21,447 bases of DNA from a virus. Where the stretch lies: IMG/VR virus record IMGVR_UViG_3300035034_001374, positions 1 to 21,447 of that record; one strand, written 5' to 3'. The position numbers and the translations under genes are program-made. Under the pieces are notes generated by a model, which was not told the DNA's origin, made no database searches, and saw only the letters and a program-made list of their open reading frames with translations. Shown one piece after another: positions 8,001 through 19,203 of the stretch (position 1 is its first letter; each line of letters opens with the position of its first letter).

Positions 8001-9170
8001 CCGACGTCCGTTACGGTCTGCGTAAGGTATAGTGATACTTTTGTTTCGCGCATCTTCTGGCTGAATAGTATAACGCACAGGATCGCTAACTCGATGCCAA
8101 AAACGATAGAGTCCAACAGGCACGTTAGCAAAATTACCATCGCTAAATCTTAAGCGTATACCATCTGCACCTCTGTTCTCGATTGCATATAAATTTCTGT
8201 TGTTTAGCTCTACGCTGTTATAGTTTAGTGTTTCGCCTACTACGTTTGCGACGCGTTCCCAGTTGTTTAGCACTAGCCCGTTTGAATCAATTTCTTGCAA
8301 ATAAACATCGCCTTCGGTAATATTTTCTACTCCTATATTTTCCACGCGGTTTTGTAAGGGTGCTGTATAGTTAAAATCTACTGAATCTAAATTACCTTGC
8401 CTGAAATATACAAAAAAGCCGGTGTCAGGTGAATTAAATCCCTGGCTGTCGTTGCGGTAAATCATGTTGAATAAATTTGTGGTGTCAGGTGTACGTTCAC
8501 TAAACACACCGTTGTCTTTGAACGTTGGGTTTACAACGTTAAATGCTCTCGGCACTCCGTTTACTGTTAGATTAAAATTGTACGCAATCGGTGAGCCGAG
8601 CACAGTATTAAATTGATACAGTTCCGTATTGACGCCGCCAACTGTTCCCTCCTTGATCGGACTAGTAAAACGATTAGTTCGACTCATAGCCGCGTTCATA
8701 ATTAGTATAAACTGCTCGTAACTTTGCGGGTTGTTTACATCGTTCCAGAATACTGTCCGGTTAGACAGTTGGTCGTCTAGGCTATCAGTCAATGACTCGG
8801 TAGTCCTAACGCTAGTTATTTTCATTAGACCGCTAGCTGGAATATTACGCTTGGGATTATAGCCCAGCATACGTGCTAGTTTAAATACACTGTCGCGACG
8901 TTCTGCCGTTTCCAAAAAGTTTTCACGTGTGTTAACATCCATTCGGAACGCAAGATTTTGCGACAGATAGGCAAGCAATTCGATAATAGCTATAAATTCA
9001 CTACTTTCAATATAGTCGTTAAAATTTTCAGGAAAATTAGTTCGCACATAATCAACAAGAGCGCTACGCACACTGTCGAAGTCGTATGCCTGGAAGTTTA
9101 TCTGGCTAAATGCTTTATAAGCAATACGCCAATCTTCCGCAGCAAACAAGCTGGCTTGTCGATTATTCAT
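5034..9170 (-). CDS. 6: Baseplate wedge subunit gp6, enlarged form
   Basis: This 1,378-residue protein matches T4 gp6, the wedge subunit that dimerises to form the inner ring of the baseplate. The N-terminal block at about residues 46-112 has the family signature (FPENFNDYIESSEF, then RENFLETAERRDSVFKLARM and GYNPKRN). The C-terminal block at about residues 1300-1370 has NVNNWDFGETFYFTELATYI and the closing ELFISTATVNDIEI, also typical of gp6. T4 gp6 is 660 residues, so the roughly 700 extra residues lie in the middle. That region is rich in Thr, Asn, Val and Asp and looks like added beta domains. The start is clear: the gp25 stop and this ATG overlap as TAATG, with AAGGAG about 8 bases upstream. 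It should assemble with gp25, gp53 and gp48, all encoded in this window. Confidence 0.95.
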   Translation of the reverse strand: MNNRQASLFAAEDWRIAYKAFSQINFQAYDFDSVRSALVDYVRTNFPENFNDYIESSEFIAIIELLAYLSQNLAFRMDVNTRENFLETAERRDSVFKLARMLGYNPKRNIPASGLMKITSVRTTESLTDSLDDQLSNRTVFWNDVNNPQSYEQFILIMNAAMSRTNRFTSPIKEGTVGGVNTELYQFNTVLGSPIAYNFNLTVNGVPRAFNVVNPTFKDNGVFSERTPDTTNLFNMIYRNDSQGFNSPDTGFFVYFRQGNLDSVDFNYTAPLQNRVENIGVENITEGDVYLQEIDSNGLVLNNWERVANVVGETLNYNSVELNNRNLYAIENRGADGIRLRFSDGNFANVPVGLYRFWHRVSDPVRYTIQPEDARNKSITIPYADRNGRRQDLTLTFSLQTTVNNSLPAEGLNSIKNNAPQVFYTQNRMVSAQDYNVFPQSQSSNITKLTAINRTHAGHSRYIDLNDPTGTYQNVDTFADDAFLYVEIDTKTDQVIVNNNTTPIEVVASFLPSLLREREINNFVYYNMYNVLRDPARNGSLSNFVFTPTDNITWNPLPARTEGKTGFLTEEFSTPGTVNVLVNNTVKTSQFKENTLVKFTNPADTGEFKWTRIISVASNGALSAGVNTSRGPFAFSEEIPGGWYVSDTIVSLRKLFTVPEATLIEQKISDKETFGLGYDLLTNTWYVIENDALDKSGPYAINGSQRGPSSWLLLLEKEDVNQFTFKYNVTQRSLDYVIQSEDDIQFYNVKNVKVVGSNNKSSQDLITFSTVNTKPSTVEVYEWDNTVWENKTTGTRHAPAGVGITLPLVTRDTGWRDISVAWQSNFGILESTGSIADNAANNNYVNETTVPLNVFVPVNESITSGTNVVIQENVGAITFLPSRIRIPFNANTFGSNIIDTSGNASISYKQTPIDGASGSEVVFLAEVGTSPVSYGVDGSTIDTSAEGKLFLIDYDVSTQTGNLEYRNIQTETLHSSTDVTGQVSSDKLVVTYFVNRSNLTESITWEIADVYTEADGFTDARKVRVAPFDTDSDLVPDRPRQFAEFVGERDLVLFEFFTDLDGFIYDRPFFGRVLDVRTEETLDISVADDSITPIGRDRVSVSSIEWIIVKNLSSLSELARVPSSAGMIGYVLETNKTYQLTPLSTSPDDVQVVESRDYFVKPGRGKTQNTTATVQTSGTIRWQHVAPNDVRIDPSISNIVEMTILTTDYFEEVQRWQADPSIEFPLEPTSNELSSQFSGLNTYKAASDTLTFRSAKFRLLFGTQSAEAEANFRVVKLSDNISDNELKTRIISTINEYFNVNNWDFGETFYFTELATYIHQQLGSSLGSIVIVPRNTSGKFGQLFQVKSDPNELFISTATVNDIEIISRLDNQTLRIDN

Positions 9171-9544
9171 TAACTAACTCCTTGGGATATATTTCGTACG
9201 AATTCTAGGTATAATGTATCAGTATCGTTTAACTGTATATACGTAAGATCTACTTCTGCGCGAATAGTATGCTCAGCAACAAGAACGCGTATGTCTCTTA
9301 CCGTAATACGTGGATCACGTGATGCAATACGATTGATGTCTGTTCTTACTGCTTCTTCAAGATCGCTAGTACTCGGGTCCATTAATAAATCCCAAACAAT
9401 GCTGCCGAAATTCGGCCTCATCACTCTTTCGCCTTTACGGGTATAAAATTCATTAAGCAGGTCTCGTTTAACCAAAGCCGAGTCGCTTAACTCGTACGGT
9501 GCGCGTACTTTATTTGCTGTGCTAAATCCTACAAATCGTGTCAT
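9170..9544 (-). CDS. 25: Baseplate wedge subunit gp25
   Basis: About 124 residues, close to T4 gp25 (132). The sequence RDLLNEFYTRKGERVMRPNF followed by GSIVWDLLMDP is the hallmark of the gp25/GPW family, a small wedge protein that contacts the sheath-tube junction and gp6. I chose the ATG at 9544 because MTRFVGFSTANKVRAPY matches the usual family start. An in-frame ATG at 9571 would add nine residues. Neither start has a clear Shine-Dalgarno sequence. A GATAAATA box sits only five bases upstream of the chosen ATG, so the late mRNA may have almost no leader. It overlaps gp6 by one base (TAATG). The opposite-strand gene at 9687-9974 separates it from the upstream baseplate genes, so it probably needs its own promoter. 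Confidence 0.92.
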   Translation of the reverse strand: MTRFVGFSTANKVRAPYELSDSALVKRDLLNEFYTRKGERVMRPNFGSIVWDLLMDPSTSDLEEAVRTDINRIASRDPRITVRDIRVLVAEHTIRAEVDLTYIQLNDTDTLYLEFVRNISQGVS

Positions 9545-9549
9545 AGTGT

Positions 9550-9557
9550 TATTTATC
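9550..9557 (-). promoter_or_regulatory. Candidate T4-type late promoter box for gp25-gp6
   Basis: On the minus strand this reads GATAAATA, one base from the T4 late box TATAAATA. The same 8-mer lies upstream of gp48. It is placed where gp25, gp6 and the giant structural gene need a promoter after the interruption by the plus-strand gene. If transcription starts about six bases past the box, as in T4, the mRNA would begin at or next to the gp25 ATG. The call is inferred from motif and position only. Confidence 0.45.
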
Positions 9558-9589
9558 GTTATTGTTAACATTAGTTTTAACCAGAAAAC

Positions 9590-9617
9590 TTGACACTAGC
9601 GGCAGTACCTGTATAAT
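9590..9617 (+). promoter_or_regulatory. Consensus sigma-70 promoter for the small gene at 9687
   Basis: TTGACA (9590-9595) and TATAAT (9612-9617) are both perfect sigma-70 hexamers, 16 bases apart, with TG directly before the -10. Transcription should start near 9624, leaving a leader of about 60 bases. The leader contains a small GGC-GAAA-GCC hairpin at 9648-9657. This looks like an early-type phage promoter read by the host polymerase. The -35 and -10 arrangement closely resembles the promoter upstream of gene 55 (same spacing, TGTATA[A/C]T). Confidence 0.85.
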
Positions 9618-9686
9618 TAGTAGTAAGCACATAACATTGTGTGAGACGGCGAAAGCCATTTTTAACTCCCAAAGAAGGAAAGCAAA

Positions 9687-9974
9687 ATGCGCCGAGATAA
9701 GGTATCACTACCAAGCGTGTTTGATAATATTTGGAAGCAGGCTGCAAAGCGTAATTCCGAATTGAATCCATTGTGTGTTTATGCCGATTATACCGGCGGA
9801 CGTTTCCAGCGCATCTATGAGCAGGATAAGCGTTACATTACGATGGGTATCTATGATACTGTAAGTAAAAAGTACAGTATGTTTAACACCATTAATTTGG
9901 TGGGCAATTTTCGCTATAACACTCAGGTTGTGCCACCCGAGTTTAGCGAGATGCGCCGCATAATCTCTGCCTAA
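9687..9974 (+). CDS. Small hypothetical protein, early-type gene antisense within the late block
   Basis: This 95-residue protein does not match a family I recognise. It has no signal peptide or membrane segment. It is basic at the start (MRRDKVSLPSVFDNIWKQAA) and rich in aromatic residues through the middle (YADYTGGRFQRIYEQDKRYI), which suggests a small compact cytoplasmic protein. The gene is convincing: AAGGA at 9675-9679 sits seven bases before the ATG, a consensus sigma-70 promoter lies upstream, and an intrinsic terminator begins 14 bases after the stop. It is the only plus-strand gene among the virion genes, between the lysozyme-like gene and gp25. Its own promoter suggests expression early in infection, unlike its neighbours. 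Possible roles include host takeover or regulation, but nothing in the sequence decides this. Confidence 0.85.
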   Translation: MRRDKVSLPSVFDNIWKQAAKRNSELNPLCVYADYTGGRFQRIYEQDKRYITMGIYDTVSKKYSMFNTINLVGNFRYNTQVVPPEFSEMRRIISA

Positions 9975-9988
9975 ACGTAGAGATACCT

Positions 9989-10013
9989 AAAGGGGCGCTT
10001 GCGCCCCTTTTTT
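9989..10013 (+). terminator. Rho-independent terminator
   Basis: AAAGGGGCGC pairs with GCGCCCCTTT around a TT turn, followed by a run of six T (10008-10013). It lies 14 bases after the stop of the small plus-strand gene. The opposite strand has only three T after the hairpin, so it works best in the plus direction. The T run overlaps the stop codon of the minus-strand lysozyme-like gene, so the hairpin may also mark the 3' end of that transcript. Confidence 0.9.
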
Positions 10014-10482
10014 ACGACAAATTTTCGAAGTATTCTCTTCTAAGTGTACGCAGAGATTCTGCTTGCTGCAAAAAGTTTAAATTATCTTTACCGTTTGCTA
10101 CCTGTATTGACACAGCAGATGGCGTCTGGAATAGTTCGCCTTCGTACGCTCGGCGTGCTGCTAGTTCACTCCTACGGACAACTCGTTCGTTGCGACCATC
10201 TCCCACCCATTCTGCCATCAAATGAGGAACATTTTGGTACATACTTTTATTAAGTGATGCTAACACTTTGCTGCTCAAAAAATTCTCAGTTCCTATATCC
10301 AATGCAAAACTAGCCAGAGCTAATGCTTGATTCTCTGTTATAGGAACTGTTATACTGTCGCGTATGCTGTTATATGCTTGATTGAGATCTGCAATTAATA
10401 TTAGATTAACTGCTATGTCGCCTACGCCATCTTTGAAATCAATTAATATGTTTCCCTTCTTGTCTCTGTAAATTGTGCTCAT
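10012..10482 (-). CDS. Lysozyme-domain-like protein, apparently lacking the catalytic N-terminal part
   Basis: 156 residues. Residues about 30-115 resemble the C-terminal three quarters of the T4/P1-type lysozyme fold (GH24): VPITENQALALASFALDIG, then SSKVLASLN, a Trp at 92, and RRSELAARRAYEGELF. The N-terminal part, which in T4 lysozyme carries the Glu-Asp-Thr catalytic set (E11, D20, T26) within an 'E...D..G..TIGxGH' motif, is not visible. In T4 the lysozyme domain is embedded in gp5, the baseplate hub. Here it is a separate gene directly after gp5 (overlap TAATG), so it may be the split-off tail lysozyme turned into a structural or peptidoglycan-binding part. No membrane segment is seen. 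The fold is a moderately confident call; loss of activity is inferred. Confidence 0.7.
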   Translation of the reverse strand: MSTIYRDKKGNILIDFKDGVGDIAVNLILIADLNQAYNSIRDSITVPITENQALALASFALDIGTENFLSSKVLASLNKSMYQNVPHLMAEWVGDGRNERVVRRSELAARRAYEGELFQTPSAVSIQVANGKDNLNFLQQAESLRTLRREYFENLS

Positions 10483-16182: not shown

Positions 16183-16190
16183 TATTTATC
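16183..16190 (-). promoter_or_regulatory. Candidate T4-type late promoter box for gp48 and downstream baseplate genes
   Basis: GATAAATA on the minus strand, one base from the T4 late consensus, in the 40-base gap between the glycosyltransferase-like gene and gp48. Transcription would start near 16177, giving a leader of about 12 bases that contains the AGGAG ribosome site. Geometry and strand fit a late promoter for gp48-gp53-785 aa-gp5-lysozyme-like. It matches the box before gp25. Confidence 0.6.
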
Positions 16191-17304: not shown

Positions 17305-17332
17305 TTGACATACGCTATATATAGTGTATACT
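17305..17332 (+). promoter_or_regulatory. Sigma-70 promoter for gene 55
   Basis: TTGACA (17305-17310) and TATACT (17327-17332), spaced by 16 bases, with TG before the -10. Only one base departs from consensus. Transcription should start near 17339, about 26 bases before the GTG start. The same spacing and TGTATA(A/C)T form occur in the promoter of the small gene at 9687, suggesting a shared early class. Confidence 0.8.
17316..17323 (-). promoter_or_regulatory. Weak candidate late promoter box for the glycosyltransferase-like gene
   Basis: TATATATA, one base from TATAAATA, lies 40 bases before the start at 17276 and inside the spacer of the gene 55 promoter. It is part of the 10-base palindrome CTATATATAG (17315-17324), so strand is ambiguous. 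AT-rich palindromes are common by chance, so this is a tentative call. Confidence 0.2.
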
Positions 17333-17353
17333 TAGTACTTAATAATAATATGC

Positions 17354-17358
17354 AGGAG
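17354..17358 (+). promoter_or_regulatory. Ribosome binding site that fixes the GTG start of gene 55
   Basis: AGGAG ends six bases before the GTG at 17365. The upstream in-frame ATG at 17350 has no such site, and the TTG at 17305 is the -35 hexamer of the promoter. The GTG is therefore the best start. Confidence 0.75.
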
Positions 17359-17364
17359 TTCTTC

Positions 17365-19203
17365 GTGGCACAACCTAAAAAAGTAAATTATCTTAATAAC
17401 AAAGACATCTTACGTGAAATTCATAAAAGTAAGATGACTTTTTGCTGGAGTCTGGATAGCAAATATGAACAGTTTGACGTAATCTTAGATGACATCAAAG
17501 ATATTAACAAGAAAAATCTAAAACTTGCTAAGAAAAATCACACAGCAAGATTACAAGCAGATGCGTATGCTGACGCTATGAAAAATTACACTGACGATTA
17601 TCGTAATAAACCAAAGCAAAAAGATTTTGCAGTAAGCGTTGATTCAATTGATGATGACGGTGTTGTATTCCGGGTAATGACATTCGATCATATTCCCCTA
17701 GAGCCCGGTCGTAAGAAAAATCCTAAAACTGTCGCTGACACAAAAAGCAAGGTTAATTTTCCTCCTTTTAAGCAATATGCGTATATAAACGGGGACCTAA
17801 CTGAAGTGGTTCGGTCTCACTGGACAGGCGATCTAGATACTGGCAATTTTAGCGTCGATGGCGGTCGCGTTACTAATAAGCTAGGCACAATGTTTCTCAA
17901 GCTGGTGGAGCGTTATGGCCATCGTGCAAACTGGCGTGGCTATTGTGTAGATGAAGAGACCGAAGCACTAACACAACGTGGCTGGATGAAGCACAATGAA
18001 ATTACAACACAAGACAATATACTTTCTTACGAAAGCGGTGAGTTAAAGTGGTCAACTGTTGATTCTATTTTTTCAGATGAATACGATGGTAAAATGTTTA
18101 AGTTAGATTGCAAAGGTATGGATGCATTAATTACACCCGGACATAAACTCGTCACCGAACACGGAATGACACGGGTTGAATACTTACTTGAATCTGATCG
18201 AGTGGTGTTAATGGGGTCCGAAGTTAAAACAACACACGATGCTGTGTACGACGACGATCTAGTTGAATTAGTAGGCTGGATAATTACAGAAGGTAATTTC
18301 CAGCCTAAAAAGAATCTAGTGTCAATTTATCAAAACAAAGGCGCATACGCCGATCGCATCAGGCAGTGTCTCGGTAACTTAGACTACAAACACACAGAGT
18401 CAATGGATCACAAGGGAAATATTAGGTTTTTAATTTGTGTTAAACATTCTAAATACCTAATGAAATTGTTACCGGACAAAAACGTCACAATGAATTTTGT
18501 AGTTGCACTGTCGTCTTCTCAACGAAAACTGTTGATTGAGACCATGGTTGACGGTGACGGATGGCGAAGAGGACAATATAAGCAATACAATAGCTATTGC
18601 CAAAAAGATAAAATGCATGTGGATTTATACCAGGCATTATGTGCTATCGCCGGACAAAAAACAAATTCTAAATTAAACCACATTGTATCTTACGGGAAAC
18701 CAACTAGTTGTTACACCATTCATACATTTGCAAAGAACACAACCAGAGGTGAGTGTATTGATATGCACAATGGTAAAAATAACGGCAGTGAAAGAATAAG
18801 CCCAGGAAAGGAAAAAATTAATTTCCCGAATAACCCAACTGTTGATTACAAAGGTATAGTTTGGTGCCCAAAGACTGAGTTTGGATGTTTCGTGGCACGT
18901 CGCAATGGCAAAGTTTACCTTACTGGCAATACATACGTTGACGAAATGCGTGGACAGGCGCTGGTACAGCTTAGCCAAGTGGGCTTGCAGTTCAACGAAG
19001 CAAAAAGTGACAACCCATTTGCCTACTACACCGCAGCCGTTAGCAATAGCTTCACTCGTGTTCTCAACATCGAAAAGCGCAACCAAACTATTCGCGACGA
19101 CATTCTCATTGATCAAGGACACATGCCCAGTTACACACGACAGCTCAAGCACGAAGAAGAAGTGCGACAGCTTCGCGAAAGTGCTGAATCAGAAGAAAAC
19201 TGA
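17365..19203 (+). CDS. 55: Late-transcription sigma factor gp55, interrupted by an intein
   Basis: The precursor is 612 residues from GTG. Removing the intein (precursor residues 194-522) leaves a 283-residue sigma factor. The N-extein has the gp55 start (VNYLNNKDILREI) and ends LGTMFLKLVERYGHRANWRGY. The C-extein starts TYVDEMRGQALVQLSQVGLQ and continues with NPFAYYTAAVSNSFTRVLNI and EKRNQTIRDDIL. These align with T4 gp55 around NFSGYTQSWKQEM and NPHAYITQACFNAF, the sigma region-2-like part that binds RNA polymerase. T4 gp55 (185 residues) directs the host core polymerase to late promoters. The N-extein has over 100 more residues than T4 gp55 between 'NNKDIL' and 'LGTMF'. It is followed by genes 47 and 46, as in T4. 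Late promoter candidates (GATAAATA) before gp48 and gp25 are its likely targets. The N-terminus (MAQPKK... from GTG) is set by AGGAG. Confidence 0.93.
   Translation: MAQPKKVNYLNNKDILREIHKSKMTFCWSLDSKYEQFDVILDDIKDINKKNLKLAKKNHTARLQADAYADAMKNYTDDYRNKPKQKDFAVSVDSIDDDGVVFRVMTFDHIPLEPGRKKNPKTVADTKSKVNFPPFKQYAYINGDLTEVVRSHWTGDLDTGNFSVDGGRVTNKLGTMFLKLVERYGHRANWRGYCVDEETEALTQRGWMKHNEITTQDNILSYESGELKWSTVDSIFSDEYDGKMFKLDCKGMDALITPGHKLVTEHGMTRVEYLLESDRVVLMGSEVKTTHDAVYDDDLVELVGWIITEGNFQPKKNLVSIYQNKGAYADRIRQCLGNLDYKHTESMDHKGNIRFLICVKHSKYLMKLLPDKNVTMNFVVALSSSQRKLLIETMVDGDGWRRGQYKQYNSYCQKDKMHVDLYQALCAIAGQKTNSKLNHIVSYGKPTSCYTIHTFAKNTTRGECIDMHNGKNNGSERISPGKEKINFPNNPTVDYKGIVWCPKTEFGCFVARRNGKVYLTGNTYVDEMRGQALVQLSQVGLQFNEAKSDNPFAYYTAAVSNSFTRVLNIEKRNQTIRDDILIDQGHMPSYTRQLKHEEEVRQLRESAESEEN
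17944..18930 (+). mobile_element. Intein with LAGLIDADG homing endonuclease, inserted in gp55
   Basis: A 329-residue in-frame insertion between Tyr and Thr of the conserved gp55 'GYT'. It starts with Cys1 (CVDEETEALTQRGWMKHNEI: block A). TPGHKLV at residues 64-70 is block B with its His67. The end is block F/G: GIVWCPKTEFGCFVARRNGK then VYLTGN, with terminal Asn329 and Thr as the +1 nucleophile. The penultimate residue is Gly instead of His, a form I recall from phage inteins ending 'RRNGK..xTGN'. Two LAGLIDADG motifs (LVELVGWIITEG at 106-117 and LLIETMVDGDG at 196-206), each with an acidic catalytic candidate (Glu116, Asp205), lie about 90 residues apart. All residues needed for splicing and endonuclease activity appear present. 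Hand-counted 60-base samples give 35% and 38% GC inside the intein against 55% in both immediate flanks, consistent with later acquisition. Confidence 0.95.

Follow-up and report, generated by a model that had tools for sequence, protein, structure and literature searches.

The short open reading frame antisense to the late genes upstream of gp25 in this phage, an apparent orphan, belongs to a defined and widespread gene family with a gene-specific RNA element. According to the explanation that we favour and regard as probable, its product is a regulator or host-takeover protein, early and vertically inherited, whose gene carries a post-transcriptional control hairpin and resides in an antisense cargo slot. 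Early timing, nucleic-acid binding, the role of the hairpin, and autoregulation are what we infer from sequence. More generally, the structural core of T4-like jumbo phages appears to contain a fixed antisense slot, preceded by divergent early and late promoters, in which early genes are exchanged.

Antisense unit in the window

The window, i.e. the whole stretch of DNA analysed here, is a complete viral contig of 21,447 bp. All elements reported in the preliminary description between the lysozyme-like gene and gp25, on the opposite strand, were recovered: the promoter, the ribosome site, the 95-residue ORF, and the terminator. The unit and its flanks comprise the following features.

9170..9544, minus strand: gp25 baseplate wedge gene, flank (PF04965, E 1.5e-11)
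9550..9557, minus strand: late-type motif GATAAATA of gp25, pointing away from the sigma70-type promoter (motif in 89/96 distinct relatives)
9590..9617, plus strand: sigma70-type promoter TTGACA-N16-TATAAT (12/12 match)
9627..9642, plus strand: 5' leader hairpin GCACA-taacat-TGTGT with AA and GA flanks (fold, covariation)
9648..9657, plus strand: small second leader hairpin GGC-gaaa-GCC (fold; present in many, not all, relatives)
9674..9679, plus strand: ribosome-binding site GAAGGA, 7 nt 5' of the ATG (sequence)
9687..9974, plus strand: 95-aa gene, ATG at 9687, stop at 9972-9974 (ORF, family, dN/dS, AlphaFold2 model)
9989..10013, plus strand: intrinsic terminator (-15.1 kcal/mol, z -3.1)
10012..10482, minus strand: lysozyme-like gene, flank, convergent with the unit (PF00959, positions 43-124 of 125 only)

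The promoter at 9590 is the sole 12/12 site in the window, where 0.03 such sites are expected on both strands (first-order Markov, i.e. dinucleotide, simulations of the window). Two sites match at 11/12 positions, one of them before gp55 at 17305. Transcription would start at about 9624, and the leader between promoter and ORF comprises 69 nt. The terminator consists of a 9-bp stem at 9989-10010 and a U tract extending to 10013; it was missed by a simple scanner and recovered by folding. The minus-strand version of this hairpin is also stable, but the U run there is short.

Flanking late genes

The start codon of gp25 is probably that at 9544, not at 9571. The lysozyme-like gene (10012-10482, minus strand) shows a partial Phage_lysozyme match, its N-terminal catalytic part being apparently missing. 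A domain similar to that of this gene is fused to gp5 in the related locus L001, and the Mimasvirus phages have a second separate lysozyme gene as well.

The unit had been described as lying in a single late baseplate operon. Two late units were found instead, with minus-strand GATAAATA motifs at 16190-16183 and at 9557-9550. Transcription of the block that ends in gp5 and lysozyme would start from the motif at 16190, and that of gp25-gp6 from the motif at 9557. Because of these two motifs, the antisense unit is placed between two late units, convergent with the gp5/lysozyme unit and divergent from the gp25-gp6 unit. The flanking late genes would be read later in infection from these gp55-type promoters, that of gp25 being divergent to the early promoter.

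The late promoters of the clade look extended. The element TTAwAAC starts 23 nt before GATAAATA in 71/108 contexts, mostly at gp25, and a TTTAAT/TTAAT element occurs 7-12 nt before GATAAATA, at several late genes other than gp25 too. The corresponding region of the window is 9550-9580 (minus strand). The gp55-like late sigma gene (17305-19203, plus strand) has its own promoter, TTGACA-N16-TATACT at 17305, of the same class as that of the antisense unit; an intein-like insert appears to split this gene in frame, with a weak match to LAGLIDADG_3 (E 0.049).

Relatives and the antisense slot

Relatives were defined as distinct gp25 variants with readable flanks, taken from loci chosen by gp6 and from a further scan (n = 96). 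Profile search revealed the family gene in 70 of them, always antisense and upstream of gp25; this number is not a frequency, since the family itself served to gather part of the collection. The loci L019-L098, selected by gp6 and independently of the family gene, give the fairer figure of 48/80, yet this set is restricted to the best gp6 matches. As to search sensitivity, a single sequence retrieved two contigs and a two-sequence alignment 15 loci. No matches were obtained with the 95 residues as single query against the phages collection, PHROGs, and Pfam, or with the family alignment against GTDB genome contigs.

The preliminary description had proposed looking for the unit at the same place in related phages, and it is there in these 70 relatives and in the cultured phages PA5oct and Paride. 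Presence combined with late expression in all relatives had been named as the outcome that would speak against an early-type unit; the unit is present in most relatives, not in all.

An antisense cassette was identified in 96/96 relatives and was empty in none, with the gene order family-hydrolase-coiled-coil. The cassette contains the family gene alone (30 relatives), family and coiled-coil genes (26), hydrolase and coiled-coil genes (20), all three (10), the coiled-coil gene alone (6), the family gene with two coiled-coil genes (2), or family and hydrolase genes (2). Other antisense cargo includes a putative metalloprotease in L014/L016, a porin-like protein in L037, and further small genes in L031. 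The place before gp25 thus appears to be an antisense cargo slot with the family gene as its commonest occupant, and is usually located behind a sigma70-type promoter diverging from the late promoter of gp25. The antisense alpha/beta hydrolase upstream of gp25 occurs in L036-L062, L071, L083, L084, and L098 (Abhydrolase_1, E 8e-13 in L071) and is followed by a coiled-coil-like protein of ~65 aa; some loci in the L036-L098 range have the coiled-coil gene only.

The homologues in PA5oct (gp352) and Paride occupy the same slot on the same strand and match the family profile with 64 and 63 bits, respectively (E ~1e-18 among 1,953 ORFs). The single-sequence route to PA5oct gave only a weak tblastn match of the relative L031 (E 0.02), which the profile then confirmed. 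The genes for gp55 and SbcD adjoin the cluster in PA5oct, the same as in the window. Gp352 of PA5oct-like Pseudomonas phages, Paride included, provides a cultured, genetically accessible family member, and the role of early genes inside late clusters becomes directly testable. In the more distant Mimasvirus lineage, gp5, lysozyme, gp25, and gp6 are collinear, without insert or slot. The jumbo phages Phosso and Atu_ph07 (L181 and L183) also have antisense genes just before gp25, including one for a 3'-5' exonuclease-like protein; these genes fail to match the family profile and are unrelated to the family.

Promoter and terminator across relatives

Control signals were surveyed in 57 distinct members, i.e. 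PA5oct and 56 drawn from viral contigs, the window among them. A canonical promoter, TTGAC[ATG]-N16-18-[TC]A[TC]ANT, is located just upstream in 34/57 members. In 16/57, the -10 place is taken by TTAAATA, usually with TTGAC kept at about -35, and the remaining 7/57 have neither type. The mark of an early gene that was looked for, a conserved canonical sigma70 promoter directly upstream, is accordingly present in the window and in those 34 members. Host sigma70 RNA polymerase would transcribe the unit from TTGACA-TATAAT soon after infection.

The TTAAATA(C) type, which marks a subclade, was found in L001, L005, L007, L009, L011, L013, L019, L023, L024, L030, L112, L114, L115, L116, L123, and L128, and is usually preceded by TGC or TGT. 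The -35 element is missing too in three of these (L001, L013, and L114). Within the tested contigs, TTAAATA is essentially confined to the family gene, and canonical promoters are present elsewhere in the same contigs. Judging by this motif, the gene may be expressed later or with another factor in some relatives. An assignment of TTAAATA to a MotA box or a plain T4-late promoter was rejected; it comes without the TTTAAT element found upstream of the late GATAAATA motifs.

Most cassettes that begin with the hydrolase or the coiled-coil gene likewise have a TTGAC[AT] promoter in this position. The hydrolase ATG lies a few bases after the -10 of a TTGAC[AT]-TATAAT promoter, so that this gene looks leaderless. 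The divergent pair of early-type and late promoters is kept in most relatives.

A strong intrinsic terminator follows the family gene in 36/57 members vs 3/57 in shuffles. In several members without one (e.g. L090 and L093), the start of the hydrolase gene overlaps the stop codon region in an operon-like manner. With the terminator in place, the transcript would end short of lysozyme/gp5 and not extend over them in antisense. The view of the unit as an independent one, with a host-type (early-type) promoter and antisense to late genes, is borne out by the layout and by the recurrence of promoter and terminator in relatives.

Inheritance and the moron question

The family shows a median dN/dS of 0.07 and a maximum of 0.21 (54 pairs), indicative of strong purifying selection on the ORF. 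Family divergence tracks that of gp25 (Mantel r 0.43, 0/999 permutations). Because of these dN/dS and Mantel values, the gene is considered to be vertically inherited and stable in a clade of jumbo T4-like phages related to Arenbergviridae such as PA5oct and Paride.

An RNA-level explanation, in which the ORF would be incidental and gp25/gp5 would be held back up to the late phase by transcription of the unit or by its antisense transcript, is highly improbable. The selection on the ORF speaks against it, as does the replacement of this ORF in other cassettes by intact ORFs and never by non-coding DNA; moreover, the terminator stops the transcript before the lysozyme/gp5 overlap and the promoter is located outside gp25. 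It would account for the conservation of the divergent early and late promoters as a pair.

The unit had also been called a typical moron. The layout agrees with this term, the window unit having its own promoter, its own terminator, and an orientation opposite to that of the late genes. The notion of a sporadic recent gain does not stand: gene, place, and orientation are the same in 70/96 distinct relatives and in PA5oct/Paride, the divergence follows gp25 under low dN/dS, and the remaining relatives have other antisense genes at this place, none being empty. We regard a true moron, i.e. a recently acquired, dispensable, and sporadic gene with its own promoter and terminator, as very doubtful, even with the variable slot contents among relatives and the absence of any insert from gp5-lysozyme-gp25-gp6 of Mimasvirus phages in its favour. 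Base composition bears on both sides. The GC3 of the gene is 0.49 vs 0.29-0.33 in the late genes tested and 0.40 in SbcD, which would fit an old foreign origin, but its total GC (0.431) is close to that of the window (0.407). The moron as a recent event is largely refuted; an ancient insertion in the common ancestor is possible and compatible with the explanation that we favour. It is the slot that resembles a moron site, its antisense contents differing between relatives.

The encoded protein

The window protein shares 31-63% identity with 49 other members of the family. The near-invariant residues are F12, A19, N23, R39, F40, G54, Y56, D57, F66, N70, G73, N74, R76, Y77, P83, E85, and M89. 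The protein is basic (pI 9.7), and pI values of 8.7-10.1 were calculated for 49/50 members. Its AlphaFold2 model displays an alpha-beta-beta-beta-alpha topology (pLDDT 88.4, pTM 0.76), with a helix predicted at residues 8-26, strands at 40-47, 50-57, and 62-67, and a second helix at 84-94. The model of a second member, L086, is weaker (pLDDT 73) and has the same topology.

The earlier remark that the protein has no recognised family holds, as profile searches gave no Pfam, PHROGs, or NCBIfam family. Weak matches to NUMOD1, grpIintron_endo, DUF3825, PC4, and others (E 0.004-0.1, one or two members each) were dismissed as chance. No matches were obtained with PADLOC or in a sequence search of solved structures. 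Foldseek gave no significant fold match (E above 0.03), and the best VIA-align Z was 3.9. The top VIA-align row is T7 Gp1.2 (71 residues, 3% identity), tied with many unrelated folds. The predicted model has the alpha-beta-beta-beta-alpha topology of dsRNA-binding domains (dsRBDs), several of which appear at VIA-align Z 2.5-3.4, below the meaningful level; a Pfam search at E 0.1 detected no dsRBD sequence family among 32 members.

From its charge and topology, this small basic protein is most likely nucleic-acid-binding. It would act as an early regulator or host-takeover factor. The PA5oct record contains an ESI-MS/MS note on the flanking genes and none on gp352, which agrees, as weak evidence, with a non-virion role.

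Leader hairpin

A hairpin was identified within the first 42 nt in 49/49 leaders examined, with two weak stems (L157 and L165). The median distance from the -10 to the stem is 8 nt and the median stem length 7 bp; 38 different arm pairs form these stems. Over the first 38 nt, z averages -1.53 in the 49 family leaders vs -0.09 at 35 further sigma70-type promoters, taken from PA5oct and related contigs. The hairpin is specific to the family gene and not general to the sigma70-type promoters of the same phages.

In the subgroup of the window, 97.8% of the cells of the five-pair stem are paired, and 4/5 pairs are changed on both sides. The covariation score was reached in 0/500 shuffles, with hand-paired arms and hence a bias towards the structure. 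Because of a conserved G-U pair at the stem base, the comparison argues for an RNA element rather than a DNA operator. The AA before the stem and the GA after it are invariant in 27/27 leaders of two subgroups (19- and 8-member alignments), and the loop sequences are not conserved. In the window, the hairpin is separated by ~30 nt from the downstream ribosome site and leaves it accessible. An Rfam search over 9400-10100 gave no match. A put-like two-hairpin antitermination element was rejected, as the second hairpin is not general among relatives. The leader of L037 (2694-2751, minus strand) has a 12-bp stem followed by eight T and resembles an attenuator or a terminator, located downstream of the promoter and ahead of the gene.

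The 5' hairpin would serve gene-specific post-transcriptional control, either as a 5' stabiliser or by binding a regulator, which could be the encoded protein. Stems at the 5' end protect mRNA in E. coli mRNA decay, and the family hairpin is located at the very 5' end. It may act as a stabiliser only, with the protein having a function unrelated to RNA, such as inhibition of a host enzyme; T7 Gp1.2, the top structural row, inhibits dGTPase. This is a reasonable possibility, short of being likely: other early-type leaders of the same phages have no hairpin, the invariant AA and GA flanks go beyond the needs of a simple stabiliser, and the Gp1.2 row shares its score with many unrelated folds.

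Specificity, covariation, and these same flanks would instead suit an autoregulatory operator, in which the basic protein with its predicted dsRBD-like topology would attach to the 5' hairpin of its own mRNA, with repressed translation or a less stable mRNA as the result, in the manner of T4 gp43 or gp32. A precedent is T4 gp43, with a leader hairpin ~40 nt upstream of the start codon (PMC3014915). The variable loops, the distance of the window hairpin from the ribosome site, and the lack of a dsRBD sequence family match, with structural Z under 4, make such an operator rather unlikely. The fuller proposal that this unnamed small basic family is a dsRBD-like RNA-binding early regulator, which recognises the AA-stem-GA hairpin at the 5' end of its own mRNA, and perhaps other RNAs, and so times phage or host gene expression, is more speculative still. 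The explanation that we favour, an early regulator or host-takeover protein with a control hairpin, accommodates the hairpin in either role.

Comparison with known systems

The closest counterparts are PQE65_gp352 of PA5oct and Paride_0440 (Arenbergviridae, Wroclawvirus), homologous by profile and located in the same antisense slot between gp25 and gp5. They share with the window unit a sigma70-type promoter of their own (TTGACG-N17-TATACT in PA5oct), a 5' hairpin, and a terminator. In contrast to the window protein, they are very divergent, are ~10 residues shorter after the third strand, and are annotated as hypothetical proteins. Another small gene (gp351) follows the homologue there, unlike in the window.

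Lambdoid morons are recent, GC-distinct acquisitions, and novel ORFs of T4-like phages are mostly not moronic-looking (PMC1524935). Like a lambdoid moron, the window unit is an ORF equipped with a promoter and a terminator of its own and surrounded by genes that belong to a different expression class, but the family gene is fixed across the clade and follows its vertical history. The window unit also shares with the early-promoter/stem-loop cassettes of T4-type phages the combination of exchangeable genes behind early promoters, stem-loops, and a fixed intergenic place. Arbiol et al. are said to have described, in 2010, how T4-type phages shuffle such cassettes. In the present case, however, the hairpin is part of the leader, downstream of the promoter, and the slot belongs to the structural core; the window showed no repeated copies.

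The likeness to T7 Gp1.2 and to dsRNA-binding domains is one of predicted fold only, alpha-beta-beta-beta-alpha, with Z under 4, no sequence similarity, and no significant fold match. The autoregulatory leaders of T4 genes 43 and 32 differ from the family leader in that the proteins are unrelated and the loop is not conserved here. The two are alike in having a leader hairpin before the gene of a nucleic-acid-binding protein (binding being predicted in our case), and a structured leader with compensatory changes, as in an autoregulated gene, is present in the family as well (hand-paired arms).
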